Positions 7,853 to 47,506 of a stretch of DNA of 64,000 nt are shown here, one piece after another. The stretch covers positions 1 through 64,000 of the forward strand of contig CAJTDX010000005.1 in assembly GCA_910575155.1 (NCBI GenBank). Direction: 5' to 3'. A model generated the notes under the pieces. The model made no database searches. It worked only from the letters and a program-made list of their open reading frames with translations, and was not told the DNA's origin. This DNA is from Lachnospiraceae bacterium. GTDB taxonomy: Bacteria; Bacillota; Clostridia; Lachnospirales; Lachnospiraceae. The position numbers and the translations under genes are program-made. Each line of letters begins with the position of its first letter. Within the stretch, counting starts at the first letter, position 1.

Positions 7853-9562
7853 ATGGAAAGTGAAAAATTTGAAAATCTGTTAAATCTGGCCCTGAACGCC
7901 ACAGAGCGGGAACGGGAAAAATCTTTGAATCTGGGCGTGGGCTATGAACCGCAGGAGAACCGCTGGGAGCTGATTGTGAAATATTCGGGAAATATTATGA
8001 GGCTCTCAGAGGAGAATCCGGACATTCGTGTGGAAGAACTCAGCAATGAATATGCGATTCTGAACGTACCAGAGTCGGCTATGGATCAGGTAGCAGACGC
8101 AGTGGAAGTGGAATATGTGGAGAAACCGAAGCGGATGTATTTTGCCGTACAGGAGGGAAAACGCGCGTCCTGCATTATGCCTTTGCAGGATGCGCGTTAT
8201 AATTTGACAGGCAGAGGGGTGATCGTTGCAATATTGGATTCTGGAATTGACTACCGTCATCCGGATTTTCGCAATGCAGATGGCAGCACCCGGATTCTGG
8301 CGCTGTTTGATGAGACGTTGGATCGGGAATTTACGGCGGAAGAAATTAATCAGGCTTTGGAGGCTGAAAATGAACAGGAAGGTTTCCGGATTGTGCCCAG
8401 CAGAGATACTTCCGGGCATGGTACGCATGTGGCGGGCATTGCCGCGGGGAATGGCAGGGCTTCCAGCGGCATAAATCGGGGCGTGGCATATGAGAGTTCC
8501 TTACTGGTGGTAAAGCTGGGAACGGCGGAGCCGAATGGATTTCCCAGAACAACACAGCTTATGCGGGGGCTGGATTTTGTGGTACGGAAAGCGCTGGAAC
8601 TTCGTATGCCAATGGCAGTCAATATCAGTTTTGGCAATAATTATGGTTCTCACAGCGGAACTGCGCTGCTGGAAAGCTACATTAATGATATGGCTAATTA
8701 CTGGAAAATTCTGATTTCAGTGGGAACAGGAAACGAAGGAGCTGCAAGAGGGCATACTTCCGGAATTCTGGCAGAAGGGCAGGATCAGGAAATTGAACTT
8801 GGGGTTGGAAATTATGAGACGACGTTGAGTCTGCAGATTTGGAAATCTTATGTAGACAGATATGATATTTTGCTGGAACATCCTTCCGGGAGCAGGATTG
8901 GCCCGGTTCGGCAAATCCAGGGGCCTCAGCGTTTTGTTATGGGCCGTACGGAGATTCTTCTTTATTATGGGGAACCCAGCCCTTATAATCTCTACCAGGA
9001 AATGTATATTGATTTTCTTCCGGCACAGTCCTATATAGACGCGGGGGTCTGGAGGGTTGTGCTGGTTCCGGAACGGATTGTACGGGGAAATTATGATCTT
9101 TGGCTTCCGGGGCAGACGGTTTTGAATCAGGGCACAGGTTTTCTCTATCCGGTGGAAGAAACTACGCTGACAATTCCTTCTACAGCAGAAAAAGTAGTTT
9201 CAGTTGGGGCTTATGACGCAAGATATAATCAGCTTGCGGAATTTTCCGGCAGAGGTTATACCAGGCAGACGAATCAGGTGAAGCCGGATCTTGCTGCGCC
9301 GGGGGTGGCAATCCGTTCCGCCGCGCCTGGCGGTACGTATGCCGTACGCAGCGGAACTTCCATGGCGACGCCTTTTGTCACAGGCAGCGCAGCGCTGTTG
9401 ATGCAATGGGGGATTGTAGAGGGGAATGATCCTTATCTTTATGGGGAGAAGGTGAAAGCGTATCTGATAAGAGGGGCAAAACATCTGCCAATTTTGCAGG
9501 AGTACCCCAATCCACAGCTTGGCTGGGGCGTGTTGTGCCTGAGGGATAGTCTGCCAGGGTGA
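7853..9562 (+). CDS. S8 (subtilisin-like) serine peptidase, Csp-like
   Basis: The 569-residue protease has the complete triad: D129 in VAILDSGID, H189 in SGHGTHVAGIAAG and S503 in SGTSMATPFVTG. An N-terminal region of about 100 residues before the catalytic domain resembles the prodomain of CspB-type germination proteases, and a long insert lies between His and Ser. There is no signal peptide. Clostridia often carry several tandem paralogues. Its last codons (GWGVLCLRDSLPG) recur twice downstream, at 10676-10716 and 13337-13378, behind a repeated mobile-element-like unit. A spore germination role is inferred from the family only. Confidence 0.88.
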   Translation: MESEKFENLLNLALNATEREREKSLNLGVGYEPQENRWELIVKYSGNIMRLSEENPDIRVEELSNEYAILNVPESAMDQVADAVEVEYVEKPKRMYFAVQEGKRASCIMPLQDARYNLTGRGVIVAILDSGIDYRHPDFRNADGSTRILALFDETLDREFTAEEINQALEAENEQEGFRIVPSRDTSGHGTHVAGIAAGNGRASSGINRGVAYESSLLVVKLGTAEPNGFPRTTQLMRGLDFVVRKALELRMPMAVNISFGNNYGSHSGTALLESYINDMANYWKILISVGTGNEGAARGHTSGILAEGQDQEIELGVGNYETTLSLQIWKSYVDRYDILLEHPSGSRIGPVRQIQGPQRFVMGRTEILLYYGEPSPYNLYQEMYIDFLPAQSYIDAGVWRVVLVPERIVRGNYDLWLPGQTVLNQGTGFLYPVEETTLTIPSTAEKVVSVGAYDARYNQLAEFSGRGYTRQTNQVKPDLAAPGVAIRSAAPGGTYAVRSGTSMATPFVTGSAALLMQWGIVEGNDPYLYGEKVKAYLIRGAKHLPILQEYPNPQLGWGVLCLRDSLPG

Positions 9563-9669
9563 AATTTCGCATATTGGATAGTAAAATATAAATATCTGTG
9601 TTAAAATAAGAATAAATTTAGTTTATTATGTAATATGGAAAATGTTAGGTTATGTATGGGAGGTGGAAT

Positions 9670-9891
9670 ATGAAACGGGAAGAGTACATTTCGGATGAGA
9701 TGGTAGTAAAGCGTGTAAATGAAGCGGTGAGAATAGAACTGGAGAAGAAGAAAGCGTTGGATGTTCCAATTGTAATATATGACAGGGAAACTCAGATTAT
9801 TTATCAGGAGAATAGCGACGGTTCTCGAGTAGAAGTAGGCAGGAGAATGAGGAGGGGACGTTACAGTGAACGTGTTACTCAAAAAGCCTGA
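9670..9891 (+). CDS. Small antitoxin-like protein paired with the zeta-type toxin
   Basis: The product is 73 residues from ATG 9670, with GGGAGGTGG immediately upstream. It is highly charged (REEYISDEMVVKRVNEAV), with a central VPIVIYDRETQIIYQ strand pair and a basic tail. The 3' end overlaps the toxin start by 26 bases, so translation is coupled. Size, order and overlap fit a type II antitoxin. I do not recognise an epsilon-antitoxin sequence, so the partner role is inferred from position. Confidence 0.6.
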   Translation: MKREEYISDEMVVKRVNEAVRIELEKKKALDVPIVIYDRETQIIYQENSDGSRVEVGRRMRRGRYSERVTQKA

Positions 9892-10471
9892 GGTGGTGCT
9901 ATTTGCCGGGCCGAACGGTTCAGGGAAAAGTACGATAACAGAATTGCTGAAACCGCCGATGGCTTATATCAATGCTGATGAAATCAAAAAGAATATCAAA
10001 TGTTCCGATTTAGAGGCAGCACAATTGGCAGAGAAGCAACGGGAAGAACACGTAGAACATATGCATGAGTTTTGCTTTGAAACCGTACTATCAACGCAGC
10101 GGAATTTAAGGCTGTTGGATAAGGCAAGGAAAAGAGGATATTTTATACGTTGTTATTATGTTCTTACTGCTGATCCGGCGATCAATGTTTGGCGGGTGAA
10201 ATCAAGAGTAGAATCTGGCGGACATGATGTACCGGAGGAGAAAATTATTAAGCGATACGACAGGGCGCTTGAACTGATAAAAGATTTAGTTCAAATCTGT
10301 GATGTTTGCCATATTTATGATAATTCAGGAAGTAAACCCTTTCGAATATTCAAAAAACGTAAGGAGGAGACATATTATGATGAATGTATGGATTGGTATT
10401 TGGAGGATATTCAGATATTGACGGGATATAATAATATGGAAAAGAAAAATTTGAACGAATATAAATTGTAA
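9866..10471 (+). CDS. Zeta-toxin-family P-loop kinase
   Basis: The 201-residue protein begins at GTG 9866 behind GAGGAGGGG. It shows a Walker A motif GPNGSGKST at residues 16-24, YINADEIKK (the Asp of the zeta/PezT active site), FETVLST, and RVESGGHDVPEEKIIKRY, the Arg-containing lid of the family. Zeta toxins phosphorylate UDP-N-acetylglucosamine; whether this member does so cannot be told. It forms a two-gene module with the small gene upstream, followed by a terminator, and is the first cargo after the S8 gene. Confidence 0.8.
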   Translation: MNVLLKKPEVVLFAGPNGSGKSTITELLKPPMAYINADEIKKNIKCSDLEAAQLAEKQREEHVEHMHEFCFETVLSTQRNLRLLDKARKRGYFIRCYYVLTADPAINVWRVKSRVESGGHDVPEEKIIKRYDRALELIKDLVQICDVCHIYDNSGSKPFRIFKKRKEETYYDECMDWYLEDIQILTGYNNMEKKNLNEYKL

Positions 10472-10540: not shown

Positions 10541-10675
10541 GTGACAATAATTTTCCATCAATTTCATCTTAACGTGACAATAATTTCCCATCATTCTAAC
10601 AGAGTTATGCGGGTTTGCGGACTTTTGACCTCAAAAAAAGTGAAAAAAGTTCGTGACAATTACTTGACATCAACG
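10541..10675 (+). repeat. Mobile-element-like end, copy A (three 20-bp repeats)
   Basis: Three related 20-mers of the form GTGACAATWAYTTKMCATCA occur at 10541-10560, 10574-10593 and 10653-10672. The stretch from about 10597 to 10684 is nearly identical to 13258-13345. Copy B has the same three-repeat spacing (33 and 78-79 bases). Multiple short repeats at one end are typical of transposase-binding sites in the rve/DDE group (IS21, Tn7, Tn552, Mu). No transposase gene lies nearby, so this is a solo end or remnant. Confidence 0.7.
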
Positions 10676-10716
10676 GGCTGGGGGTGTTGTGCCTATCGGA
10701 TAGTTTGCCGGGGTAG
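10676..10716 (+). pseudogene. 3' tail of an S8 peptidase gene, copy 2
   Basis: This reads G-L-G-V-L-C-L-S-D-S-L-P-G-stop, matching the last codons of the intact S8 gene (GWGVLCLRDSLPG). It differs mostly at third positions from both other copies, so it probably derives from a different paralogue. It begins exactly where repeat unit A ends. Confidence 0.7.
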
Positions 10717-11119
10717 AGGAATGTCTGTGGATTTGGGTTGAGAATAATTACAAAGCTTTGAAGATTATATTTGCATGACTGATATAGCAGAAACTAAAGC
10801 TGGAAATCTGTGTGGTGCATGGGATGTAAAAGATTGGGTCAGAAGCGGAACGATATTCTAAATCCTGGAAATATGAGAGTAGATAAACAATCTTTTATTG
10901 TATCAATCTATTATGTATGTTATATTCAAAGCGGGCAAATCTTAACCCTTTTTTCATATGTAAAAAGATGACTGGCAAATCCTTAGTCAAGCTGTTATAA
11001 GGATTACCCTTTGAGGTTTCAGCAGTAGGTTGTTCTATATGCCTGTCAGAGCATTTGCCTAATTTCAGAAAGGGGTCAAATACAAATCATGCTTCTGGTT
11101 CTGTGAAGGGGTGTGATGC
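10717..11119 (+). other. Gene-poor spacer before the HNH gene
   Basis: About 400 AT-rich bases. The only open frame is a 28-codon one at 10774-10860 (MTDIAETKAG...SGTIF) without a convincing ribosome site, possibly a gene remnant. GGCAAATC-type words recur at 10936 and 10976 but form no array. I see no promoter, hairpin or RNA gene that I can support. Confidence 0.4.
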
Positions 11120-12055
11120 ATGAAACAGATAATGGACTTAAACAAAGAAATTGCTAACCAATTATGGGTACAACAGTTTGGCAAAAAGCAAAAGGCAATT
11201 GATTATACTGGACGTGAAGTTGCAAAAGCTGCCTACAATGACAGGAACAGTAAATATGGCTGGAATGTTGATCACATTTTGCCGTTGTCAAGAGGTGGTA
11301 AAACGGCAGATCATAACCTGATTTGCTGCCATATTTTGACGAATGATGAGAAAGCGAATAAATTTCCATGTTTTAAAGCTAATGCAAAGGAATTTGAGAT
11401 TAAAAAGCGGCAGAATTACTATGAGATTGAAGCAAAAACAGATTATCCAAAGAAGGAAGAAGAGGAATTGATAAACTTTCAGGATGTTGCGCAAGGGCTT
11501 AAATGCTGGAAACAGTGTAAAGCTAATAGCAAGGGTGTTTTTGCTGGATATGTTAAGATTAGAGTAGAGACGTCTAATAAATCTGACCAGCTTCTTGAAA
11601 GATACAGGAATTTTTTGGTGGAATTATTTGGGACGGACAGTATTTTTGCTGAAGAGATTAGAACGCCTTACGTTATTGGGTATAATCGAAGTTTTGTTTT
11701 TACTGTTATAATGGGCGATGTTACAGCAAAAGAAGATATGGAAAATATTCTTGATGATTGTATTATATTAAATACATATAGTACATATTTCATAGAAAAA
11801 ACAGGATTTGAAGATATTAAAATTGTCTGTGGAATGGAATGTTATGACAATTATTTAGAAATGTCTTTGAATTGTAAAAAAGATATCTTGGAGAATCAAG
11901 TGCGTTTTATTGCTTCATTGGCGATTGATGAACTTGTGAAAATTAATACAACGGCTGAAAAGGAATTAAAAAACACCATTTCCCCAAATGGGTTTTATCC
12001 TTATGATTTTTATTTTACGAAACTTAGAAAAAATCTTGAGAAATTAATCCGGTAA
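11120..12055 (+). CDS. HNH endonuclease-domain protein with an uncharacterised C-terminal domain
   Basis: The 311-residue protein has an N-terminal HNH fold at about residues 20-90. A treble-clef-like lead-in (DYTGREVAKAAYND) is followed by NVDHILPLSRGGKTADHNL (the catalytic His in VDHI and the Asn in DHNL) and HILTNDEKANK. Residues 120-311 match no family I recognise and may bind a partner or sense infection. The start has GAAGGGGTG upstream. HNH proteins of this size in accessory islands are often restriction or defence nucleases; that role is inferred from context. Confidence 0.75.
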   Translation: MKQIMDLNKEIANQLWVQQFGKKQKAIDYTGREVAKAAYNDRNSKYGWNVDHILPLSRGGKTADHNLICCHILTNDEKANKFPCFKANAKEFEIKKRQNYYEIEAKTDYPKKEEEELINFQDVAQGLKCWKQCKANSKGVFAGYVKIRVETSNKSDQLLERYRNFLVELFGTDSIFAEEIRTPYVIGYNRSFVFTVIMGDVTAKEDMENILDDCIILNTYSTYFIEKTGFEDIKIVCGMECYDNYLEMSLNCKKDILENQVRFIASLAIDELVKINTTAEKELKNTISPNGFYPYDFYFTKLRKNLEKLIR

Positions 12056-12074
12056 TTAAGAAGGTGGCGGCGTA

Positions 12075-12206
12075 AATGGCAGTTATCACATATAATGACC
12101 AGCTAAGGCAGTTATTAGCAAATGTGGAATGCGTGCTGGCTTTTGACACGGCGGCAGATTTTTTGGGACTGACAAATGGCGGATATAGATCAGCAGCACA
12201 GATATA
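12075..12206 (+). pseudogene. AbiEi-type antitoxin, N-terminal fragment
   Basis: An ATG at 12075 behind AAGGTGGCGG opens a 43-codon frame ending in DTAADFLGLTNGGYRSAAQIY. This resembles the start of AbiEi antitoxins (a winged-helix region), which normally run past 180 residues. The frame then stops. The AbiEii-like toxin gene still follows, so the antitoxin has been truncated. The family match is short and tentative. Confidence 0.5.
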
Positions 12207-12370
12207 TTGACCTTTTAGAGCAAAATGGGGATGAACAGATTATTACGGAGAGTTTGGCAAATTATTATGACGCACACAATGAGAGTTTTGATGGACTTGA
12301 AGTGCCAGAGCATTTGAAAGCGAGGTTTGAGAAATATAAGACATGGGCGGTTGAATATTATGAAGAGTAG
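12176..12370 (+). CDS. Hypothetical 64-residue acidic protein before the AbiEii-like gene
   Basis: This frame overlaps the end of the AbiEi fragment and stops just before the next gene. It encodes an acidic, helix-prone peptide (YIDLLEQNGDEQIITESLANYY, then VPEHLKARFEKYKTWAVEYYEE). It has no clear ribosome site of its own. It may be the C-terminal remnant of the antitoxin in another frame, or a small replacement antitoxin. I cannot name a family. Confidence 0.4.
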   Translation: MADIDQQHRYIDLLEQNGDEQIITESLANYYDAHNESFDGLEVPEHLKARFEKYKTWAVEYYEE

Positions 12371-13093
12371 GTGACATGTTTGGACTTGATGGAATTTTTG
12401 TACAGAGTGATGGAAGAACTGTCAAATGCAGGTGTGCCGATTGTATTTAAAGGGACGATGGTCCTTAATCTTGCAATCATGAACAATAATCCATCAAAAG
12501 TTGAAAGAGCGACCAGAGATATAGAGGGAGATTGGATTGGTGAAATTCCATCTATGGAGGAAATGGAAATAGCGTTGAGAAACGCGGTAAAAGAAGTGGA
12601 TTCTTCCTTAGATGTTCAAGCCAACAGAACATTCGCTGAAAGAAAATCTGCCGGTTTTAGAATTATCAATGAAATGGGAGAAAAGATCGCAAGTATTGAC
12701 TTAAGCGTTAGGCAGAACCGATTTTGCAGATTTTACATTTCCTGTGTGAATGGAATATCCATTACAGGAGCAAGTTTATCCAAAATGCTGTCTGACAAAT
12801 TATATGCAATTTCAGGAGAAAGTGTATGTAGAAGAATAAAGGATGTATTGGATATTTATGTGATGTCTTTTATTACAAAAATTGATATAGATGAATTGCA
12901 TCAAATATGGACTGAAACAGGTAGGGAATTGGGGGATTTTGAAACATATAAAACTCAGATCGCCAAGTTGGGTGAAGCTTATAATAAAATGAAGGGTATA
13001 AAAAATAAACCCGATTTTCTTGATGCATACAGTCGGGTAAATGATATAATATGTAAATTGGAACATCGAAAAGAAATTGAAACTTCGATTTAG
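12371..13093 (+). CDS. AbiEii/AbiGii-like nucleotidyltransferase toxin
   Basis: The product is 240 residues (the true start may be TTG 12380 or ATG 12389; AGGTGA lies at 12369-12374). The core is PIVFKGTMVLNLAI followed by RATRDIEGDW, which fits the GS/GT...DxD pattern of the DNA-polymerase-beta-like fold in AbiEii toxins. Later ASIDLSVRQ, GASLSKMLSDKLYAIS and RIKDVLDIYVMS match the typical order of the family (third acidic residue, then the 'K..A...R.KDxxD' segment). AbiEii toxins modify nucleic acid or tRNA and act in phage abortive infection. Its antitoxin appears broken. Confidence 0.75.
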   Translation: MTCLDLMEFLYRVMEELSNAGVPIVFKGTMVLNLAIMNNNPSKVERATRDIEGDWIGEIPSMEEMEIALRNAVKEVDSSLDVQANRTFAERKSAGFRIINEMGEKIASIDLSVRQNRFCRFYISCVNGISITGASLSKMLSDKLYAISGESVCRRIKDVLDIYVMSFITKIDIDELHQIWTETGRELGDFETYKTQIAKLGEAYNKMKGIKNKPDFLDAYSRVNDIICKLEHRKEIETSI

Positions 13094-13135
13094 AAAAAAG
13101 TAAGATAAATTTTAGGATATGAGTGGGAAATATAA

Positions 13136-13170
13136 AGATGCCAGACAGATATAATGCTGGTATCTTTTTT
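13136..13170 (+). terminator. Terminator after the AbiEii-like gene
   Basis: AGATGCCAG (13136-13144) pairs with CTGGTATCT (13157-13165), with one G-U pair, followed by TTTTTT. Confidence 0.75.
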
Positions 13171-13202
13171 GTCATAAGACAAGTGGGAAAAATGAGAACA
13201 AC

Positions 13203-13336
13203 TTAGCAATAACTTCCCATCAATTTTCACTGTACTTAGCAGCTATTTTCCATCACCCTAACGGAGTTATGCGGGTTTGCGGACTTTTGACTTCTAAAAA
13301 AGTGAAAAAAGTTCGTGACAATTACTTGACATCAAC
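13203..13336 (+). repeat. Mobile-element-like end, copy B (three 20-bp repeats)
   Basis: This has the same architecture as copy A: related 20-mers at 13203-13222, 13236-13255 and 13314-13333. The part from 13258 to 13345 is almost identical to copy A, while the two outer repeats have drifted more. It ends at the same codon position of another S8 peptidase tail. Confidence 0.7.
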
Positions 13337-13378
13337 GGGCTGGGGGGTGCTATGCTTACGGGACAGCCTGCCGGGATA
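13337..13378 (+). pseudogene. 3' tail of an S8 peptidase gene, copy 3
   Basis: In one frame this reads G-W-G-V-L-C-L-R-D-S-L-P-G-stop, identical in protein to the end of the intact S8 gene but different at most third codon positions. It is what remains of a paralogous peptidase gene after interruption just before the Gly-Trp codons. Confidence 0.72.
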
Positions 13379-13524
13379 ATTTGTGTTCCAAAGAAAAATG
13401 CCATATAGATCCAGCAAAGCTCGGGATTTGAGATTTGTTGGATCTATATAGTTATTATAGGGAGTGTTGTATTTCACATATTTTTTCTATGAGATGTACG
13501 GATGGGGTAGGCAGGATATATCAT
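13379..13524 (+). other. Spacer with a long inverted repeat
   Basis: ATATAGATCC-AGCAAA (13403-13418) pairs with TTTGTT-GGATCTATAT (13434-13449), a stem of about 16 bp around a 15-base loop. No U tract follows, so it is not a clear terminator. No gene is visible here. Confidence 0.5.
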
Positions 13525-13553
13525 TAGACATATTTTGTAAACTAAAGTATAAT
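13525..13553 (+). promoter_or_regulatory. Promoter of the HD-GHKL gene
   Basis: TAGACA (13525-13530), a 17-base spacer and TATAAT (13548-13553) lie about 33 bases before the start codon. Confidence 0.55.
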
Positions 13554-13585
13554 ATTGGAAAAATAATGTGCAAAGGAGAAAGGCG

Positions 13586-16500
13586 ATGGGGTATCGGGAG
13601 AATAAAATATGGAAAAGATTAGAGGAGATCTGTGTCAATTCTAGCGAACTGGGAAACATTATAGAAATGTGTGACAGCGCTGTTGAATTGGTCAAAACAA
13701 TTAGAGATACATTTCCAGATTATACTTTACATGACGAAACGCATATTTGCAATGTAATCAACTGGATGGAACAGATTCTGGGTGACTCTGGGATTGGGAT
13801 GCTATCGGACGGAGAATGCGCCATGCTGATTTTAGCGGCATGTTATCATGATATTGGTATGTGTTATACGAAAGAACAAAGAGAAAAGGAACTAAAAAGC
13901 CACCGTTTTACAGAGTATCTTGAGAAAAATCCAAAGGAATATTTAATGGTAAAAAGGAGTAAAGAAACTGGCGAAGAGATTCCCAAAGAAATTCAAATAG
14001 AGTATTTCAGAAGGATACATTCTCAAAGAGTAGATGAATTATTACCTGAGAACTGGGAAATAAATACAGTAAGAAGAGATAAATTAGCAGCAGTTTGTAA
14101 AAGCCACGGAGAGAAGATTGAAGGTTGCAAAGACGAATTGCCGTATGATGGATTTCTGGAAACGGACCACGTTTTGTGTGCAATATTGCTGAGGCTTGCA
14201 GATGTCTTGGACTTCGATATGAGTAGGGCGCCCAATGTTTTATATGAATTTCAGAAAATAAGTACGACCGGAAATCCATCAGCAGAGACAGAATGGAAAA
14301 AGCATCAGGCATCAAATGGATTCAAGTTGATGCAGGAAAACAGAACGCTGGTCTATCGCGCTGTTTGTGAGGATATGCAAGATGAGTATACGATAATGAA
14401 TTTCTTGGATTATGTAGATGAAGAACTGGAAAACTGTAGTTTGAAATTAAAACAGTACGGCCATACAAAGTGGAAGTCGATAAATATTCCCATGAAAGCT
14501 GAAAGATATATAGAAAGGCGGGGATATCAGACCGGAGAATATCGCTTAACATTGGAAGCAGACAATGTCTTAGATTTATTGCTGGGAGACGATTTATACA
14601 GTGCGGATGTAACCTTTATCAGAGAGTTGCTGCAAAATGCATTAGATGCTGTGAGGGCAAGAAGAGCGGTGGATTACAGATGGAACTGGGAAAAAGAGAA
14701 CTACATAATAGTAAGCGATTGGAGTGACAAAGAAGAAAATCAATGGTTCAGGATAGATGATTCAGGGATTGGTATGGATGAACAGGCGATTATGAATTAT
14801 TTTCTCAGGGTTGGGCGTTCTTATTATCAGTCTGATGAGTTTAAGAAATTAAAGTATGATAATAAAAGAAATTATGATTTTACGCCCATAAGCAAGTTTG
14901 GAATTGGAATTCTTTCTTGCTTTTTGAAAGGAGACCATATGGAGGTGAGTACAAGGCGCTGCCAAAGCGGTGAGGGTATTCGTTTTTCCATAAAAGGAAC
15001 CAAAGGCTATTATAGCCTTGCAGTGGAAGAAAAGGGTGATCGGGGAACGTCTATGCCATGTGCAGATGTTGAGGAAGTGGAAAATTTTCGTCAGAGTGTC
15101 GGCACTTCTATTGCAGTCAGGATAAAGGAGCCCCTTTCAAATAATATTGGAAGCTCGCTAAAGTCATATCTATGTTATCCAGATGTTCCAGTTTATTATA
15201 AAAAAGGAGCTGAGACTTTTTCATTCCCGACCGAGCAGGAATTAATGGAGTTTGTGAGGAAAAAGAAAGAGATAAAGATTCCGCTTCCAGAGGAATTTCT
15301 CCGGGAACTCTGTGCTAAAATACCGGAAATAATCTGGGAGGAACCTCCCTATATATGTATGACATGTGTTCCACTTGATGAAATATCACAATCGCCTTTT
15401 ATAAGCGGAGCCAAGTTTACGATTGGCATCGTAGAAAAGCACAAAGAATTATGTCCGATTGTGATCGATGGGGTGAAGTTTCAGCAGGAATTAGTGATAA
15501 GGCTGAAGATTACCAAAAGTTTAATTGAAGTTCAGATGATTTGCATAATTTCCTATTTCGGCCTTGATATGATAGGAGTGGCAGATTTTGAACATCAATA
15601 TGGCGATCGCAATGATTATAAGAATTTAAATAGTCTTTTCCGGAGGATAAATTCAGATGAAGTCCATGTAGAGGCGGCTATTCCCTTTCTGGTAAATGAG
15701 GATTTAAATAAAGCCATGGAACGATTTATTCTGCCAAGATGTGATTCTGGGGCGAAATATATTGATAATAACAGAGTTGACAAAGCATATAACGGAATAT
15801 GTGTTGAAACGGCATGGGAGAATGGTTATGGATTGGAGGAAAGCTGGTTTGAGTATACAGTTCTTCTGTTGTCAGGGGAATTCCAGCCTGCTTTGGGAAT
15901 CAGCAGGGAGAATGTGCGATGGTTCCCAATGAAAGCGGCAGGTTACATAGAATTAGTGGGAAGAAAAATTCTTAGCAGCGGATTGGGCTGTCAGTATCCC
16001 TCTTATTATGGGAATATGGAATACGGCAGATTTACAGACTTGCTCGGTGATGCGGAGTTTTGTTTACAAGCTGAAAAAATATTGGAATGCAGATCTGGAG
16101 TGAGTATCAAAGATATGAAAGATAAAATGGCTTTATCATCTGGAAAAGAACAAATAGCTGTTACCGGATTTCGGGATATATTTTATGATTACGATGAACC
16201 CCGATTATATTTTCTGAAAATTTTTAAGAGAGTATTATTGCAAACAGAGTTTGAAATAAGCTGGGATTTTTATAGGAATGGAGCAGTAGGATATTTTATA
16301 ACAGGAATACGGAAAACCCCTGTCTCGGAGGCAGAAAAAGTGTTTTTGCCGATGACGTTTGTCCATTCTTTTAATAACAATACCACACTGTTAACCAATG
16401 CAGATAACATGGGCAGATGCGCATTGAACGCAGAACATCCGTTTTCAGCTTGGCTGATGAAAAATGCAGAGTTTTTAGCAACGCGATACAAATCACTTTG

Positions 16501-16651
16501 GAAAAGGATAAGGAAAAATATCTGTCTATTGAATTCAGAACGTATGATAACAGAAATTGATCATTTCTTGAAAGAAATCCAGAAGAGAGGAGAAATACAT
16601 ATACCAGATAATGTTTGGGTAAAGGACGAAGACTTTTTAGAATTATTTTAG
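13586..16651 (+). CDS. HD-domain plus GHKL (Hsp90-like) ATPase protein
   Basis: The product is 1021 residues from ATG 13586, chosen because AAAGGAGA lies six bases upstream. The N-terminal part is an HD phosphohydrolase-like domain: LHDETH near residue 50, ACYHDIGM with H88-D89, and a later LRLADVLDFD. It is followed by an Hsp90-type ATP-binding domain: E-LLQNALDAV (N351), DDSGIGMD near 393 and SKFGIGILSC near 438. The last 500 residues are mixed alpha/beta with no family I recognise. HD-plus-GHKL proteins are found scattered in bacterial accessory islands. Defence is a context-based guess; no phosphodiesterase substrate can be predicted. Confidence 0.8.
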   Translation: MGYRENKIWKRLEEICVNSSELGNIIEMCDSAVELVKTIRDTFPDYTLHDETHICNVINWMEQILGDSGIGMLSDGECAMLILAACYHDIGMCYTKEQREKELKSHRFTEYLEKNPKEYLMVKRSKETGEEIPKEIQIEYFRRIHSQRVDELLPENWEINTVRRDKLAAVCKSHGEKIEGCKDELPYDGFLETDHVLCAILLRLADVLDFDMSRAPNVLYEFQKISTTGNPSAETEWKKHQASNGFKLMQENRTLVYRAVCEDMQDEYTIMNFLDYVDEELENCSLKLKQYGHTKWKSINIPMKAERYIERRGYQTGEYRLTLEADNVLDLLLGDDLYSADVTFIRELLQNALDAVRARRAVDYRWNWEKENYIIVSDWSDKEENQWFRIDDSGIGMDEQAIMNYFLRVGRSYYQSDEFKKLKYDNKRNYDFTPISKFGIGILSCFLKGDHMEVSTRRCQSGEGIRFSIKGTKGYYSLAVEEKGDRGTSMPCADVEEVENFRQSVGTSIAVRIKEPLSNNIGSSLKSYLCYPDVPVYYKKGAETFSFPTEQELMEFVRKKKEIKIPLPEEFLRELCAKIPEIIWEEPPYICMTCVPLDEISQSPFISGAKFTIGIVEKHKELCPIVIDGVKFQQELVIRLKITKSLIEVQMICIISYFGLDMIGVADFEHQYGDRNDYKNLNSLFRRINSDEVHVEAAIPFLVNEDLNKAMERFILPRCDSGAKYIDNNRVDKAYNGICVETAWENGYGLEESWFEYTVLLLSGEFQPALGISRENVRWFPMKAAGYIELVGRKILSSGLGCQYPSYYGNMEYGRFTDLLGDAEFCLQAEKILECRSGVSIKDMKDKMALSSGKEQIAVTGFRDIFYDYDEPRLYFLKIFKRVLLQTEFEISWDFYRNGAVGYFITGIRKTPVSEAEKVFLPMTFVHSFNNNTTLLTNADNMGRCALNAEHPFSAWLMKNAEFLATRYKSLWKRIRKNICLLNSERMITEIDHFLKEIQKRGEIHIPDNVWVKDEDFLELF

Positions 16652-17320
16652 TAAATAGTTTCTGTTATATTAATTCCAATGAGGTCAGAGTTCATGATGA
16701 AGATGTATGGCTGACACAAAAAAGCATGGCTCAGATTTTCGACTGCTCAACAATTAATATCAGCTTACATTTGAAAAATATTTTTGCCAGTGGAGAGCTG
16801 AATGCAGAAGCAGTTACCGAGAAATCCCCGGCAACTGCTTCTGATGGCAAAAAATATAGGATGAAATATTATAATCTTGACGCGATTATCTCTGTTGGTT
16901 ATAGAGTTAATTCGATTCGTGCAACCCAATTCAGGCAGTGGGCAACGAAAGTGTTGAAAACTTTTACTGTTCAAGGGGATGTGCTGGATAAAAAGCGTCC
17001 TGAAAATGGCCAGATATTTGATGAGGAATATGCATTATGCAATTCATCAACATACGGCTGCAGAAGTGATTGTAGAGCGTGCAGACCATAGAAAAGAGCA
17101 TATGGGATTGACCTCCTGGAAAAATGCCCCAACGGGTAAAATAGTGAAAGCAGATGTAAGTATCGCAAATAATTATCTGACGAGTGAAGAATTGCAGGAT
17201 TTAAACCAGTTTGTTACAATGTATCTTGACTATGCAGAAAAGGCAAAGCGGCAGATTCCCATGACAATGGAAGATTGGGCGAAAAGACTGGACGTATTTC
17301 TTGAATTCAATGAGGAAGAA
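16652..17320 (+). pseudogene. RhuM/virulence-type protein gene, broken by deletion and frameshift
   Basis: Frame 1 carries the RhuM N-terminal half (EDVWLTQKSMAQIFDCSTINISLHL, ISVGYRVNSIRATQFRQWATKVL, then ENGQIFDEEY). The rest (MHYAIHQHTAAEVIVERADH, MGLTSWKNAP, IPMTMEDWAKRLDVFLEFN) lies in another frame from about 17029. About 50 residues that normally link the two are missing. The start and final part of the family are also missing: the sequence begins right at the stop of the HD-GHKL gene and ends at the start of the next gene. Confidence 0.8.
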
Positions 17321-17944
17321 ATGAGGAAAAGTTTTATGGAATGGAAAAGTAAGTTAGAAGATGAATGTTGTGCAGATGAATTAGAGGAAATGATAATCAA
17401 TTATATTAGAGCCGGTTTTTGCTCAGATGATGAAATTTTAATGGAATGTGAGCAATATATCAAAGATTTTTACTGTGAGGAATGGGACAATTTAATGGAA
17501 GATGATTTGCCTGAAATAATCAGGGAGCTTCGCAAAAAGTTTCAACATATGGGCAATCAGAAGAATTTCTTAAAATTAGATTCAGCGTTCCATTCTCTGA
17601 GAAAACATGGAATTGTTGCATTACATTATGCCGGATATACACAGTCAGACGGATTTGCAGATTGTAATGAGAAGGCAGCGTGGTTACAGGAAAATGGTGA
17701 ACAGGTTGTTGGCTGCTGCTTTTATACAGAACAGGATTTAGAACATCTTTTACAGGGAGACACCAATTTGTTGTATGTTTCTTTTGGCAATTATTTTGAA
17801 AAGCCAACGGCCGAAGAAGTCGGGCAGATTATCACGGATGAATTAAAGTCTGTCGGATTTTGTATTCAATGGAACGGAAGTGCTGAAACGAAAATTGCGA
17901 TTACAGAATTTAAATGGGATAAGCATTATACGGATAACTATTGA
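17321..17944 (+). CDS. Uncharacterised protein (DUF6891-like)
   Basis: The open frame runs in from the RhuM remnant, but ATG 17321 has GAGGAAG seven bases upstream and begins a new, unrelated sequence of 207 residues, so I take it as the start. The first half is strongly acidic and helical (CADELEEMIINYIRAGF, SDDEILMECEQYI). The second has HGIVALHYAGYTQSDGFADC, reminiscent of DUF6891-type proteins, and a TDELKSVGFCIQWNGSAETKI end. No catalytic motif is evident. The family name is tentative. Confidence 0.55.
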   Translation: MRKSFMEWKSKLEDECCADELEEMIINYIRAGFCSDDEILMECEQYIKDFYCEEWDNLMEDDLPEIIRELRKKFQHMGNQKNFLKLDSAFHSLRKHGIVALHYAGYTQSDGFADCNEKAAWLQENGEQVVGCCFYTEQDLEHLLQGDTNLLYVSFGNYFEKPTAEEVGQIITDELKSVGFCIQWNGSAETKIAITEFKWDKHYTDNY

Positions 17945-18668
17945 GTAAAAGAGAAAATTAATAGTCGTTACCCTGTGCGCCATCCGGCCAGTAATCAGAC
18001 GTTCAGAACCGCCTGTCTTGCATACATTGCGTAGTTTCTTTCTGGTATAAATCAGCTATAATAATTTTTAAAACACAAAAGTTGTAGAAACGCTCATAGT
18101 TTGGTACAATAACAATATTTTTGTTAAAGTATTTTTCCCAGAATTATACGCAGGTTGAAAAGATGGGAACAACAGCTCCGGGGATCGTCACAGGAGGGAA
18201 TAAGTATTTCATTCTTACGGAAGAGCAGGTAGAAGCATACAAATGCCGAAATCTGGTTTTGCCGATTTTACAGAAATCTTCTTTTATTACAGGCAATGTT
18301 ATATGTCTTGATGAAGAGGTTTTTGAAAAAATAAAAGAAAGAAACCTGCCTATTTATTAAATCTGGCAAAAGTCCCGCAGGAAGAGTTACCGTTCGAGCT
18401 GGAAGAATATTTAACCTGGGCCGGGGGACAAAAGATACAGAATGTGGAATTGAAAAATCGGAGGAATTTTTGACCTCAGAAAGACATGAACTTACGGAAC
18501 ATCACTTGAAGAAAATCGAAGGATCATATATAATCAGTAGCAGGGCATATAAAAAGTATATATTGTGCAGAGGATGTTTGCAGATTTTCATTTGCATTAC
18601 GGCAGAAAGATGGATCAACGATGTGCAAAGAATGCAGTTGCGACCGATTTTGTGGCAAAGGAGATATT
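17945..18668 (+). other. Decayed region between the island and the uracil-DNA glycosylase gene
   Basis: About 720 bases without an intact gene. It holds the methyltransferase remnant listed separately at 18115-18470. The rest, 17945-18114 and 18471-18668, shows no gene, tRNA or repeat that I can support. This appears to be the right margin of the accessory island. Confidence 0.5.
18115..18470 (+). pseudogene. C-terminal remnant of an N6-adenine DNA methyltransferase/type IIG enzyme
   Basis: The first frame reads YFSQNYTQVEKMGTTAPGIVTG, NKYFILTEEQVEAYKC and LPILQKSSFITGN. This resembles the region after the catalytic domain of Eco57I-type methyltransferases. It stops at 18360, and the continuation (LLNLAKVPQEELPFELEEYLTWAGGQ) lies in another frame directly after, so there is a frameshift. 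No catalytic NPPY motif is present. The gene is clearly dead if the family call is right. Confidence 0.5.
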
Positions 18669-19229
18669 ATGCAATATACATGGAGCGATATAGAACAGCA
18701 CATTGCCTCCTGTACCTGGTGTCCATTGAGCCGGACCAGACATCAGCCTGTGACAGGACGTGGAAATTATCAGGCTGATCTTATGCTGATTGCAGAAGCG
18801 CCAGGGGGACAGGAGGACCAGCAGGGAACGCCGTTTGTCGGGCGTTCCGGGGAAATATTGGACCGTCTTTTACGCGATTGCGGACTGGACAGAGCGGACA
18901 TTTACATTACCAACATTTTAAAATGCCATCCTCCGGGCAACCGTGATCCCAGGGAGGAGGAAAAAGAAGCGTGTTTTCCGTATTTGAAGTATGAGACGTT
19001 TCTCCTAAAGCCAAAGATCATTGTCTGTCTTGGCCGTATTGCGGCACAGCGTATTATCTCACCGGATTTTAAAATTACCAGGCAGCACGGCGCATGGACA
19101 TACCGGAAAAATTGTGTATTGACTGCTACGTACCATCCCTCAGCGATTCTGCGGGATCCTTCCAAATACGAGATTGTGAAAGAAGATTTTTGCGGAATCG
19201 TAAAAAAGCTTACAGAATTAAACCAATAG
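18669..19229 (+). CDS. Uracil-DNA glycosylase, family 4/5 iron-sulfur type
   Basis: The product is 186 residues from ATG 18669, with AAAGGAGAT just upstream; an in-frame ATG at 18621 lacks a good site. It removes uracil from DNA. The motifs are AEAPGGQEDQQGTPFVGRSG (the uracil-binding and water-activating segment) and the C-terminal TYHPSAILRDP. Cysteines in CTWCPL, LKCHPPGNRDP and EACFPY fit the four ligands of a 4Fe-4S cluster. It sits ahead of the fructosamine kinase gene in the same direction. Confidence 0.9.
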   Translation: MQYTWSDIEQHIASCTWCPLSRTRHQPVTGRGNYQADLMLIAEAPGGQEDQQGTPFVGRSGEILDRLLRDCGLDRADIYITNILKCHPPGNRDPREEEKEACFPYLKYETFLLKPKIIVCLGRIAAQRIISPDFKITRQHGAWTYRKNCVLTATYHPSAILRDPSKYEIVKEDFCGIVKKLTELNQ

Positions 19230-45652: not shown

Positions 45653-47506
45653 ATGTGTGGAATTGCAGGATTTTACCATAGAGCGGGAGATTATGAAAAG
45701 GATGGTGCGTATTATCGTTCCATCCTTGTTGCTATGCATGAAAAACTGTCTCGCAGAGGGCCGGATGACGCGGGGATTTATCTGAGCAGACAGTGCGGGC
45801 TGTCTCACAGCCGTCTGTCCATCATTGATTTGTCTTTGGGACATCAGCCCATGGTGCGCCGCAAAGGAGAACGGACCTGCGCCATTGCATACAATGGAGA
45901 ACTTTATAATGCAAAGGAACTGCGCAGGGAACTGGAAGAAAAAGGATGGATATTTGAAACATCGTGCGATACAGAGGTCATTTTGCTGGGATTTATGGAA
46001 TACGGACCGGAAATTGCAGAAAAGCTCAATGGAATTTTTGCGTTTGCAGTTTTAGATGAAAGAGAAGATATTCTGTACTTATTCCGGGATCCTATGGGAG
46101 TGAAGCCGCTGTTTTATATGAAAAAAGGGCACGAGCTTATATTTGCCTCAGAACCGAAGGGGATTCTGGCGCATCCGGCTGTAAATCCGGAACTGGACAG
46201 AGAAGGGCTGAACGAAATTTTTGGCGTCGGTCCCGCAAGAACCCCGGGAACAGGCGTGTTCAAGGGTATGAAAGAGGTGTGCCCCGGAGAATATATTACT
46301 TATGGCAGGAATCGTTCCCTGCAGCGAAAGGCGTATTGGAGGCTGGAAAGCCATCCTCATACAGACGGCTATGAGCGCACCATAGAGACTGTGTCGGAGC
46401 TGGTGCAGGACGCCGTCCGGCGGCAGATGGTTTCTGACGTGCCCATCTGTACCTTTTTATCGGGAGGCGTGGACAGCAGCCTGGTATCTGCCATATGCGC
46501 AGCGGAGCTGAAAAAACAGGGACAAAGGCTGACCACTTTTTCTTTTGATTTTGTGGATAACCAGAAAAATTTTAAGGCAAATGCATTCCAGCCCTCCCAG
46601 GACAGACCTTATGTTGAGAAAATGGTGGAATTTTTGGGATCAGACCATCATTTTCTGGAATGCGATAATACGAACCAGATTGAAAAACTGTACGATTCTG
46701 TGAACGCCCATGACCTGCCGGCCATGGCAGACGTGGATTCTTCTATGCTGTATTTTTGTTCCCAGGTGAGCAGAAGCCATAAGGTGACGCTGACCGGAGA
46801 ATGCGCGGATGAAATTTTCGGAGGCTATCCATGGTTCCACAAAGAGGAGTGTTTTCAGGCGCAGACCTTCCCCTGGACCATGGACCTTTCTCCCAGAAAG
46901 GAACTTCTATCCGATGAATTTCTGGAATATCTGCGCATGGATGAATATGTGCGGGAAAGCTATCAGCGTTCCGTGTCAGAGACTCCTATATGTGAAGAGG
47001 ACAGTCCAAAAGAGAAAAGAAGAAGAGAGATTTCCTGGCTGAATCTCAAATGGTTTATGCAGACGCTTTTAAACCGTATGGACCGTACCAGCATGTACAG
47101 CGGGCTGGAAGCCAGGGTGCCGTTTGCGGATACCAGAATCGTGCAGTATGTGTGGAATGTTCCCTGGGAAATGAAGGCGAAAGACGGCGTGGTAAAAAAT
47201 CTGCTCCGCCAGTCCGCAAAGGGCATTTTGCCGGATGAAGTGCTGTTTCGCAAAAAATCGCCCTATCCCAAAACCTACGACCCGCGCTATGAAAATCTGT
47301 TAAAGGATAAAATCCGTGATATTATGGCGGACAGCAGCGCGCCGGTCCTGCAGTTTTTAGACCGGGCCAGAGTGGAAGCGTTTCTGAACAGGCCCTCGGA
47401 TTATGGAAAACCATGGTACGGCCAGTTGATGGCGGGTCCCCAGCTTCTTGCTTATGTGGTCCAAATCAATGCCTGGATGGAGCGTTATAAGATAAAAGTG
47501 AGATAA
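45653..47506 (+). CDS. asnB: Asparagine synthase (glutamine-hydrolysing)
   Basis: The 617-residue enzyme has the catalytic Cys at position 2 (MCGIAGFYHR), the N-terminal Ntn glutaminase (SRRGPDDAGIY, LSHSRLSIID, AIAYNGELYNA), and the synthase domain with the ATP-binding SGGVDSSLVSA, LTGECADEIFGGYP and DRTSMYSGLEARVPFAD. It makes asparagine from aspartate and glutamine. Genes of this length fit the AsnB group. It sits within the cobalamin block without an obvious functional link. Confidence 0.95.
   Translation: MCGIAGFYHRAGDYEKDGAYYRSILVAMHEKLSRRGPDDAGIYLSRQCGLSHSRLSIIDLSLGHQPMVRRKGERTCAIAYNGELYNAKELRRELEEKGWIFETSCDTEVILLGFMEYGPEIAEKLNGIFAFAVLDEREDILYLFRDPMGVKPLFYMKKGHELIFASEPKGILAHPAVNPELDREGLNEIFGVGPARTPGTGVFKGMKEVCPGEYITYGRNRSLQRKAYWRLESHPHTDGYERTIETVSELVQDAVRRQMVSDVPICTFLSGGVDSSLVSAICAAELKKQGQRLTTFSFDFVDNQKNFKANAFQPSQDRPYVEKMVEFLGSDHHFLECDNTNQIEKLYDSVNAHDLPAMADVDSSMLYFCSQVSRSHKVTLTGECADEIFGGYPWFHKEECFQAQTFPWTMDLSPRKELLSDEFLEYLRMDEYVRESYQRSVSETPICEEDSPKEKRRREISWLNLKWFMQTLLNRMDRTSMYSGLEARVPFADTRIVQYVWNVPWEMKAKDGVVKNLLRQSAKGILPDEVLFRKKSPYPKTYDPRYENLLKDKIRDIMADSSAPVLQFLDRARVEAFLNRPSDYGKPWYGQLMAGPQLLAYVVQINAWMERYKIKVR

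Follow-up and report, generated by a model that had tools for sequence, protein, structure and literature searches.

Repeat units behind an S8 peptidase gene of a Lachnospiraceae bacterium as probable right ends of a three-recombinase serine element

What left two copies of the same repeat-bearing unit, each followed by the last codons of an S8 peptidase gene, downstream of an intact S8 gene in a Lachnospiraceae bacterium? The question is raised by a stretch of 64,000 nucleotides (the window; positions 1 to 64,000 of contig CAJTDX010000005.1, assembly GCA_910575155.1), in which a preliminary description had taken the two units, A and B, for solo ends of a mobile element inserted in two different S8 genes. 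Our comparisons across genomes make it very probable that A and B each represent the P arm, the right-end attachment half-site, of elements from a family that carries three large serine recombinase (LSR) genes in tandem, LSR1, LSR2 and LSR3, and that the window holds the residue of a hit-and-run visit by such an element. Below, sampled genomes are labelled G, loci L and contigs C, with G000 denoting the window's own genome.

The two units belong to a 140-nt direct repeat with 86% identity (10545-10684 versus 13207-13346). Their identity is 113/135 overall, with 41/60 matches over the initial part and 72/75 over the final 75 bases, and the near-identical stretch that had been put at about 85 bp is therefore real, with an extent of about 75-85 bp. 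Each unit contains the three 20-bp repeats reported earlier, at spacings of 33 and 78-79 bases. Genome-wide, A and B are the only two copies (E 5e-87 and 4e-45); the next-best matches in the same genome are the tail of the intact S8 gene (40 nt, E 1e-4) and then 24-bp stretches (E 0.014). Two of these 24-bp stretches, which match the middle of the unit at 92%, lie 29 kb apart at G000:C12:17609-17632 and 46954-46977 (E 0.014), and are possibly remote relatives of the unit, or else chance.

Directly 3′ of each unit lies an S8-type tail that resembles the end of the intact gene, whose stop side is at 9562. This part of the preliminary description stands, with the correction that tail A lacks one base after the attachment core (GGCTGGGG), which places GWG and VLC out of frame and gives the reading LCLSDSLPG; of the two spare tails, only tail B encodes GWGVLCLRDSLPG in frame. 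The differences among the tails had been said to fall mainly at third positions, and the share is 7/11 between tail 1 (that of the intact gene) and tail B (42 nt), 4/8 between tails 1 and A (36 nt) and 5/10 between A and B (36 nt), which is a lean and not a strong excess. Since the genome has only two S8 homologues at E<=1e-20, the intact gene and one on another contig, tails A and B are not the ends of two further S8 genes. In place of two interrupted genes, the window thus contains one S8 gene with a tandem array, and the spare tails seem to have moved together with the cassettes. Tail B is followed by a 20-bp inverted repeat (13403-13449), and a AAGCACTTTATT...AATAAAGTGCTT hairpin stands 3′ of S8 tails in other genomes whether or not the unit is present; the hairpin behind S8 tails is probably the gene's terminator, moving along with the tail.

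An exact 25-mer of the unit had no match in the genome contig collection. Because the unit is too diverged for such a search, we turned to BLAST and a sequence model. With unit A as query, BLAST recovered relatives in 10/397 family genomes, and a sequence-only model built from an alignment of 16 unit copies, which has 51 invariant columns and includes part of the tail, matched 32/397 (E<=1e-3), the window's own genome being included in both counts. The same model matched 2/391 genomes of a class-wide sample at E<=1e-5, namely the window's own and G022, which is of the same family, and unit B had no match in plasmid and phage records. Units and codons were counted with a model of the first 141 columns, ending within the first core bases. 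Its hits, pooled over both sources of loci, comprise those at E<=1e-6 that reach the core and exclude hits with E above 1e-6 and hits short of the core. Removal of six repeats of an identical end reduced these 88 hits to 82 distinct sequences: G[WYF]G codons come next in 69 of them, M23-type codons in 2, and neither, according to the rule, in 11. When these eleven were inspected by eye, seven proved to be S8 tails with the junction shifted a few bases inwards (L079 twice, L080, L089, L090, L092, L093) and two to be mutated S8 tails (L042, L044), the last two being unrelated (L091, L180). At random GG positions, G[WYF]G codons occur in 233/16000 cases (1.5%). The S8 tails behind the units vary in type (GYGALCVEDSLPG, GFGRLDLAGTF..., GYGKMNVYDAL...), indicating that the target is the shared Gly-X-Gly codons and not a single gene. 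M23 peptidase genes are also targeted, with trio elements ending at GHDMMG-type codons (L086:8205-8864; L230, L231, L233); Pfam confirmed the M23 assignment for the G022 copy, L086.

In several family genomes, the unit is immediately preceded by three LSR genes. For one trio, Pfam identified Resolvase, Recombinase and zinc-ribbon domains in all three proteins, and the 48 proteins of 16 trios grouped by position into three sets, none being misplaced (supports for the splits 1.0, 0.10 and 0.98, the position-2 group being the weakly supported one at 0.10). A search of the genome contig collection with an LSR3 alignment returned 234 relatives, the best 80 of which constitute our named loci; this set shares some genomes with the family sample. 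LSR3 is preceded by two or more additional LSR genes in 73/80 of these loci, and a unit (E<=1e-3) is found within 6.5 kb downstream of LSR3 in 49/80, or in 43 of the 64 with at least 2 kb of downstream sequence. No unit was present upstream of the trio or on the other strand in any of the 80 loci, up to 10 kb upstream of LSR3 being covered. In 44 of the 49 linked loci, G[WYF]G codons abut the unit, so that the earlier idea of a mobile element repeatedly using the Gly-Trp codons of S8 genes is borne out and widened to Gly-(Trp/Tyr/Phe)-Gly. Sequence comparison thus establishes the linkage of the unit to the trio, and, with units attached to recombinase elements in many genomes, the array is not one duplication, as had also been argued. 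One trio element is 99.7-99.9% identical over 18 kb across two genera, G232 and G191 (L081, L162, L163), a degree of sharing that marks a very recent transfer.

The precision of the insertion could be read from the S8 loci themselves. An S8 orthologue is present in 27/29 genomes of the window's genus, and all 27 loci were mapped. Seven of the 27 are cut at about residue 131 (DSG/IDY), with the trio in six of the seven and not in G415; both halves of the gene are visible in four loci (G412, G406, G403, G415), three of which have the trio between them (the aligner places the start of the right half in G403 at 126). Elsewhere the S8 match gives way to left-end-like sequence, near residue 530 in five loci (two of which are also cut at 131), at 520 in one, and at the GWG codons near 557 in G410 and G397; the match in G406 likewise ends at 557. 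G408 and G410 are 98% identical over 9.6 kb and part exactly at CAGATTGG, after which the left end follows in G410, and the alignment thus identifies the two as an unoccupied and an occupied site. Complete elements are flanked by split S8 genes in L178, L198, L201, L216, L222 and L227. Where the element is present, the S8 gene is closed by its left end in G232, G102 and G191, in which the gene and the trio are on one contig, and also in G349 and G264, in which they are on different contigs; such closure was seen in 6 of the 7 inspected named loci that have S8 upstream. Left and right ends usually show inverted arms around a G run (CTTGACA...GG...TGTCAAG), which fits the expectation for a serine recombinase site, and the sequence common to both element ends is the short G run only. 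Both the intact elements with the same right end and a left end in S8 genes and the empty sites in relatives that had been foreseen were therefore found in other genomes, and these alignments define the element ends, the S8 target and the exactness of the insertion.

The layout of the window can be understood against this background. The intact S8 gene is followed by the zeta cassette, unit A, the HNH/240-aa cassette, unit B and the HD-CE/RhuM cassette, so that the accessory genes do lie between the marks, each cassette being bounded by unit and tail, with the third end missing (Table 1). No unit was found after the RhuM remnant of the window, whereas L221 and L182 have one there; because these two loci keep it and window 17660-17958 aligns with a region some 350 bp past S8 in G408, the third unit was probably lost by deletion. 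An open reading frame (ORF) at 16979-17944 joins the RhuM remnant to a DUF6891 domain, and this fusion was probably made by the deletion that took the third unit. The best LSR3 relative in the window's genome is just 34% identical, indicating that the element is gone from the window, which is left in an orphan state. A trio of a distant lineage is present in the same genome at L113:10083-15060 (G000:C7), with a faint unit-like end (E 0.3).

The S8 gene scores 423 bits against the NCBIfam CspBA-like model, which is strong but under the cut-off of 1250, and its orthologue in the same-genus genome G176 is 92% identical, DNA homology stopping at 9565. A uracil-DNA glycosylase gene lies downstream in 5/26 other loci of the genus, 1.4-6 kb from the S8 end (the 1.4 kb being measured from the spare tail in G411), and 9 kb from the S8 end in the window; since this gene recurs at varying distance, the spot downstream of S8 is a hotspot.

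Table 1. Features of the S8 locus in the window and the evidence for each.
Feature	Position	Strand	Basis
S8 peptidase gene, Csp-like, intact host target with first tail	7853-9562	+	Pfam Peptidase_S8 and CspB prodomain
Attachment core (GGCTGGGG) and tail 1 with stop codon, site B/B′	9521-9562	+	Tail alignment; G408/G410 divergence at equivalent GG
79-aa ORF just before the zeta-like gene, possible antitoxin (function inferred)	9652-9891	+	Position only
Zeta-toxin/AAA_33-like gene, cassette 1 cargo	9866-10471	+	Pfam
Unit A, probable right end (P arm) of a serine-recombinase-trio element without recombinases	10541-10675	+	Repeat, model, linkage
Tail A, spare S8 C-terminal codons, one-base deletion	10676-10716	+	Tail alignment
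HNH-domain gene, cassette 2 cargo	11120-12055	+	Domain search
240-aa ORF, cassette 2 cargo, no significant family match	12371-13093	+	Family search
Unit B, probable right end (P arm)	13203-13337	+	Repeat; 94% identity to L221 unit
Tail B, spare S8 C-terminal codons, in frame	13338-13379	+	Tail alignment
HD-CE and Hsp90-like ATPase gene, cassette 3 cargo	13568-16651	+	Domain search
RhuM-family gene remnant, cassette 3, split into two frames	16615-17322	+	Pfam, locus comparison
Deletion scar (inferred)	17323-17659		L221/L182 have a unit after RhuM, none found here
Uracil-DNA glycosylase gene, far side of hotspot	18621-19229	+	Recurring neighbour in genus loci

Arrays of spare tail, cargo and unit occur either behind an element, as in G264 with its four units, or alone, as in the window; trio-less arrays are opened by an intact S8 tail in the window, G262, G342, G381 and G107. 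An SLFN_AlbA_2 cassette is shared by G107 and G381, genomes of different genera, at 92% identity over 1.7 kb from the core onwards; in G107 it adjoins S8 itself, and in G381 it comes after a unit. In G370, a type-1 tail lies behind a degenerate unit (E 1e-4) within the array that follows an S8 gene whose end is of type 2, and this mixture indicates that tails travel with cassettes. Window 13197-16677 is 94.9% identical to L221, where the aligned stretch starts 30 bp after the LSR3 match; the L221 unit, about 30 bp after that match, is 94% identical to unit B. In L182, from Petralouisia muris, window 12206-13382 (which excludes the HNH gene) has a counterpart of 90.8% identity, and the HD-CE/RhuM pieces match at 88-97%; there the 240-aa ORF follows HD-CE/RhuM, an order opposite to that of the window, and the trio is adjacent. 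The core-bounded cassettes, their sharing and their change of order are thus evident from the alignments. Furthermore, recombinase-less cassettes with attachment sites lie beside a same-site element in L182, L200, L221 and G232, as is characteristic of cis-mobilisable elements (CIMEs). The swapped order and the cross-genus sharing bear on a co-mobilisation of the cassettes only indirectly.

These arrangements suggest how the array in the window may have arisen. Recombination between attP and attB would be carried out by the trio at the run of G in the 3′-terminal codons of S8. Where several right ends follow one another, an element could leave by pairing its own left end with a remote right end, so that the intervening cassettes would go with it, and together they could re-insert at the S8 gene of another cell. 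If the element later departed alone via the nearest right end, the residue would be an S8 gene closed by the donor's tail, then cassette, unit and old tail. Such deposition would need standard attP x attB and attL x attR reactions, plus several right ends in a row. Under this model the element should lie next to S8 with the cassettes beyond it, which agrees with the 0/80 loci with a unit upstream of the trio, and S8 should be closed by the left end whenever the element is present. We infer from these patterns that the trio is the acting recombinase, that a circle forms and that deposition is of the hit-and-run kind.

Several observations weigh against this reading. A unit is absent by our threshold from 31/80 loci, 10 with less than 2 kb of downstream sequence and 21 with more, and 5 of the 49 linked units are followed by something other than G[WYF]G: three by M23-type codons (L230, L231, L233), one by the end of a truncated contig (L211) and one by no match (L180). 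The last columns of the 141-column model hold a few core bases, which introduces a small bias towards G runs. TGTCAAG is absent from the left ends of G232, G102 and G191, and P/P′ symmetry is weakly above that of shuffled pairs (permutation 0.028, from short hand-entered sequences of 10 elements), a result to which we give no weight. The circular joint P/P′, searched as one exact pattern in 397 genomes, viral contigs and 257 loci, was not found. In L193, the one exception among the seven loci with S8 upstream of the recombinases, the gene retains its tail. The model leaves the origin of the tail at the first cassette's left end unexplained, and its hit-and-run step derives from arrangement and not from observed events.

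Of the other explanations, the one originally put forward was that the units are ends of an IS21/Tn7/Tn552-like DDE transposon, with the repeats as transposase-binding sites. The repeated TTGACA/GTGACA motifs and the inverted arms, taken on sequence alone, do look like Tn7-like ends. However, intact elements carry three LSR genes, LSR3 stands upstream of the unit in 49/80 loci, the short G run alone is common to both ends, and, in 16 genomes, 0/44 rve rows and 0/7 Mu-transpos_C rows fell on a unit's contig at 20 kb or less from the unit, making this transposon very improbable. The last of these tests is a limited one, many of the unit contigs being short, and a single rve gene is present some 2 kb inward of the left junction at the G264 S8 gene (G264:C119). 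A tyrosine recombinase-like gene was also considered as the mover: at L043:10204-11160 in G381, a faint phage-integrase-like gene (PF00589, E 0.0027, below cut-off) lies right behind a unit and is followed by a truncated second unit, and it was set aside because it occurs in one locus only. We give scarcely any credence to a simple tandem duplication of the S8 3′ end and its flank: it would account for S8-like tails in tandem and for there being just two units in the genome, but units stand beside trios in many genomes and before unrelated S8 tail types and M23-type genes, and the spare tails come without any S8 gene body.

Decay is a more serious consideration, since it is visible in the one-base deletion of tail A, the broken RhuM gene, the missing third unit and the trio-less element in G415, and since cargo lies between LSR3 and the unit in complete elements (G349, G315, G102). 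If decay were the whole explanation, each unit would be the scar of an independent trio element whose recombinases and left end had been deleted, and the cassettes would not be mobile units. The presence of the same cassette parts in another order in L182, and of one cassette, homologous from the core, next to S8 in G107 but after a unit in G381, argues against this, as does the intact S8 gene before the cassettes, which in-place deletion of an inserted element would not yield; we therefore regard it as improbable. A bolder proposal, which we hold to be unlikely although less so, is that the S8 3′ end serves as an integron-like platform for defence genes: the trio would also recombine P/B′ x B/B′, and recombinase-less cassettes would insert themselves, rebuilding the host gene and a fresh attB each time, which would permit unlimited stacking and reshuffling. 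In integrons, cassettes are arranged in rows, each ending in a recombination site, with no recombinase within the cassette. The arrays described here share the rows of cassettes ending in a site and differ in that insertion is at a host gene's 3′ end.

We next compared the trio elements with known systems, to the extent covered by the available portions of the published accounts. In streptococcal integrative and conjugative elements, three tandem serine integrases lie in one orientation at one element end, with genes sometimes between the integrases and the target, and form clades by triplet position (Ambroset et al. 2016, PMC4701971). The present elements resemble these triplets in their tandem LSRs, position clades and insertion in a protein gene with very short (2-8 bp) shared sequence; they differ in that hsdM, mutT or traG is disrupted by the conjugative elements there, whereas the S8 3′ Gly-X-Gly codons are the main target here, and in their arrays of unit and spare tail without recombinases behind a completely ended gene (PMC4701971). 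The staphylococcal cassette chromosome SCCmec and the Enterococcus cassette chromosome (ECC) likewise combine LSRs, insertion at a host gene's 3′ end, variable cargo and recombinase-less remnants, but with rlmH as target, CcrA/CcrB and 50-bp direct repeats, in contrast to S8 (some M23-type) here (PMC6222049). Neither LSR1 nor LSR3 classifies as CcrA/B/C, as scores of at most 102 bits compare with a cut-off of 900 for each model (LSR3 84 and LSR1 102 bits versus CcrC; about 84 versus CcrB). The ssrA islands of Dehalococcoides likewise lie in tandem downstream of a single gene, the 3′ end of which is repeated at the boundary of each island, and 15/31 of them are without an integration module and may be mobilised in cis by accretion (PMC3146451). 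These islands differ in having ssrA as target, a CcrB-like DsiB with a small DsiA, a 20-bp repeat and dehalogenase cargo, and the available part of that account describes no unit like A or B (PMC3146451). By the features tested, the element belongs with the serine-integrase triplets and appears to work like SCC/ECC and the ssrA islands with another recombinase and target. Literature searches that demanded several terms jointly found no paper on insertion into S8, subtilisin-like or CspB genes by serine recombinases; triplets and cassette arrays are each known already, and these searches did not find their combination in print.

These results identify the apparent mover, apparent target and apparent cassette boundaries of a defence-gene hotspot in gut Lachnospiraceae, and offer a 140-bp marker for locating such cassettes. 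They also provide naturally occurring three-part serine recombinases that have a target motif in common, Gly-X-Gly in subtilases, and with which the half-site rules of serine integrases can be tested, and suggest how a Csp-like protease gene may keep an intact end beside much inserted DNA.

The cargo of the cassettes was scanned with PADLOC using proteins picked by eye, which shows occurrence and not enrichment. Matches to PADLOC models (E<=1e-10) were obtained for 14/19 scanned cargo proteins: RdrA/RdrB of RADAR (L036), JetA/JetC of Wadjet (L045), PDC-S02 (L043), PDC-S22 (L038), Cas3/Cas8c/Cas7 of a type I-C CRISPR-Cas system (L089), DruB/DruE of Druantia (L082), MTase_II and REase_II of a restriction system (L037) and NsnB (L090). 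The Wadjet genes lie some kilobases beyond a unit, with no second unit seen there; all other matched genes sit between an S8 gene, trio or unit and the next unit, the placement of the Cas genes being read from L094, which is 93% identical. In the window, the three scanned proteins (zeta-like, HNH and HD-CE/Hsp90-like) gave weak PADLOC matches only, and a defence role for them is plausible.

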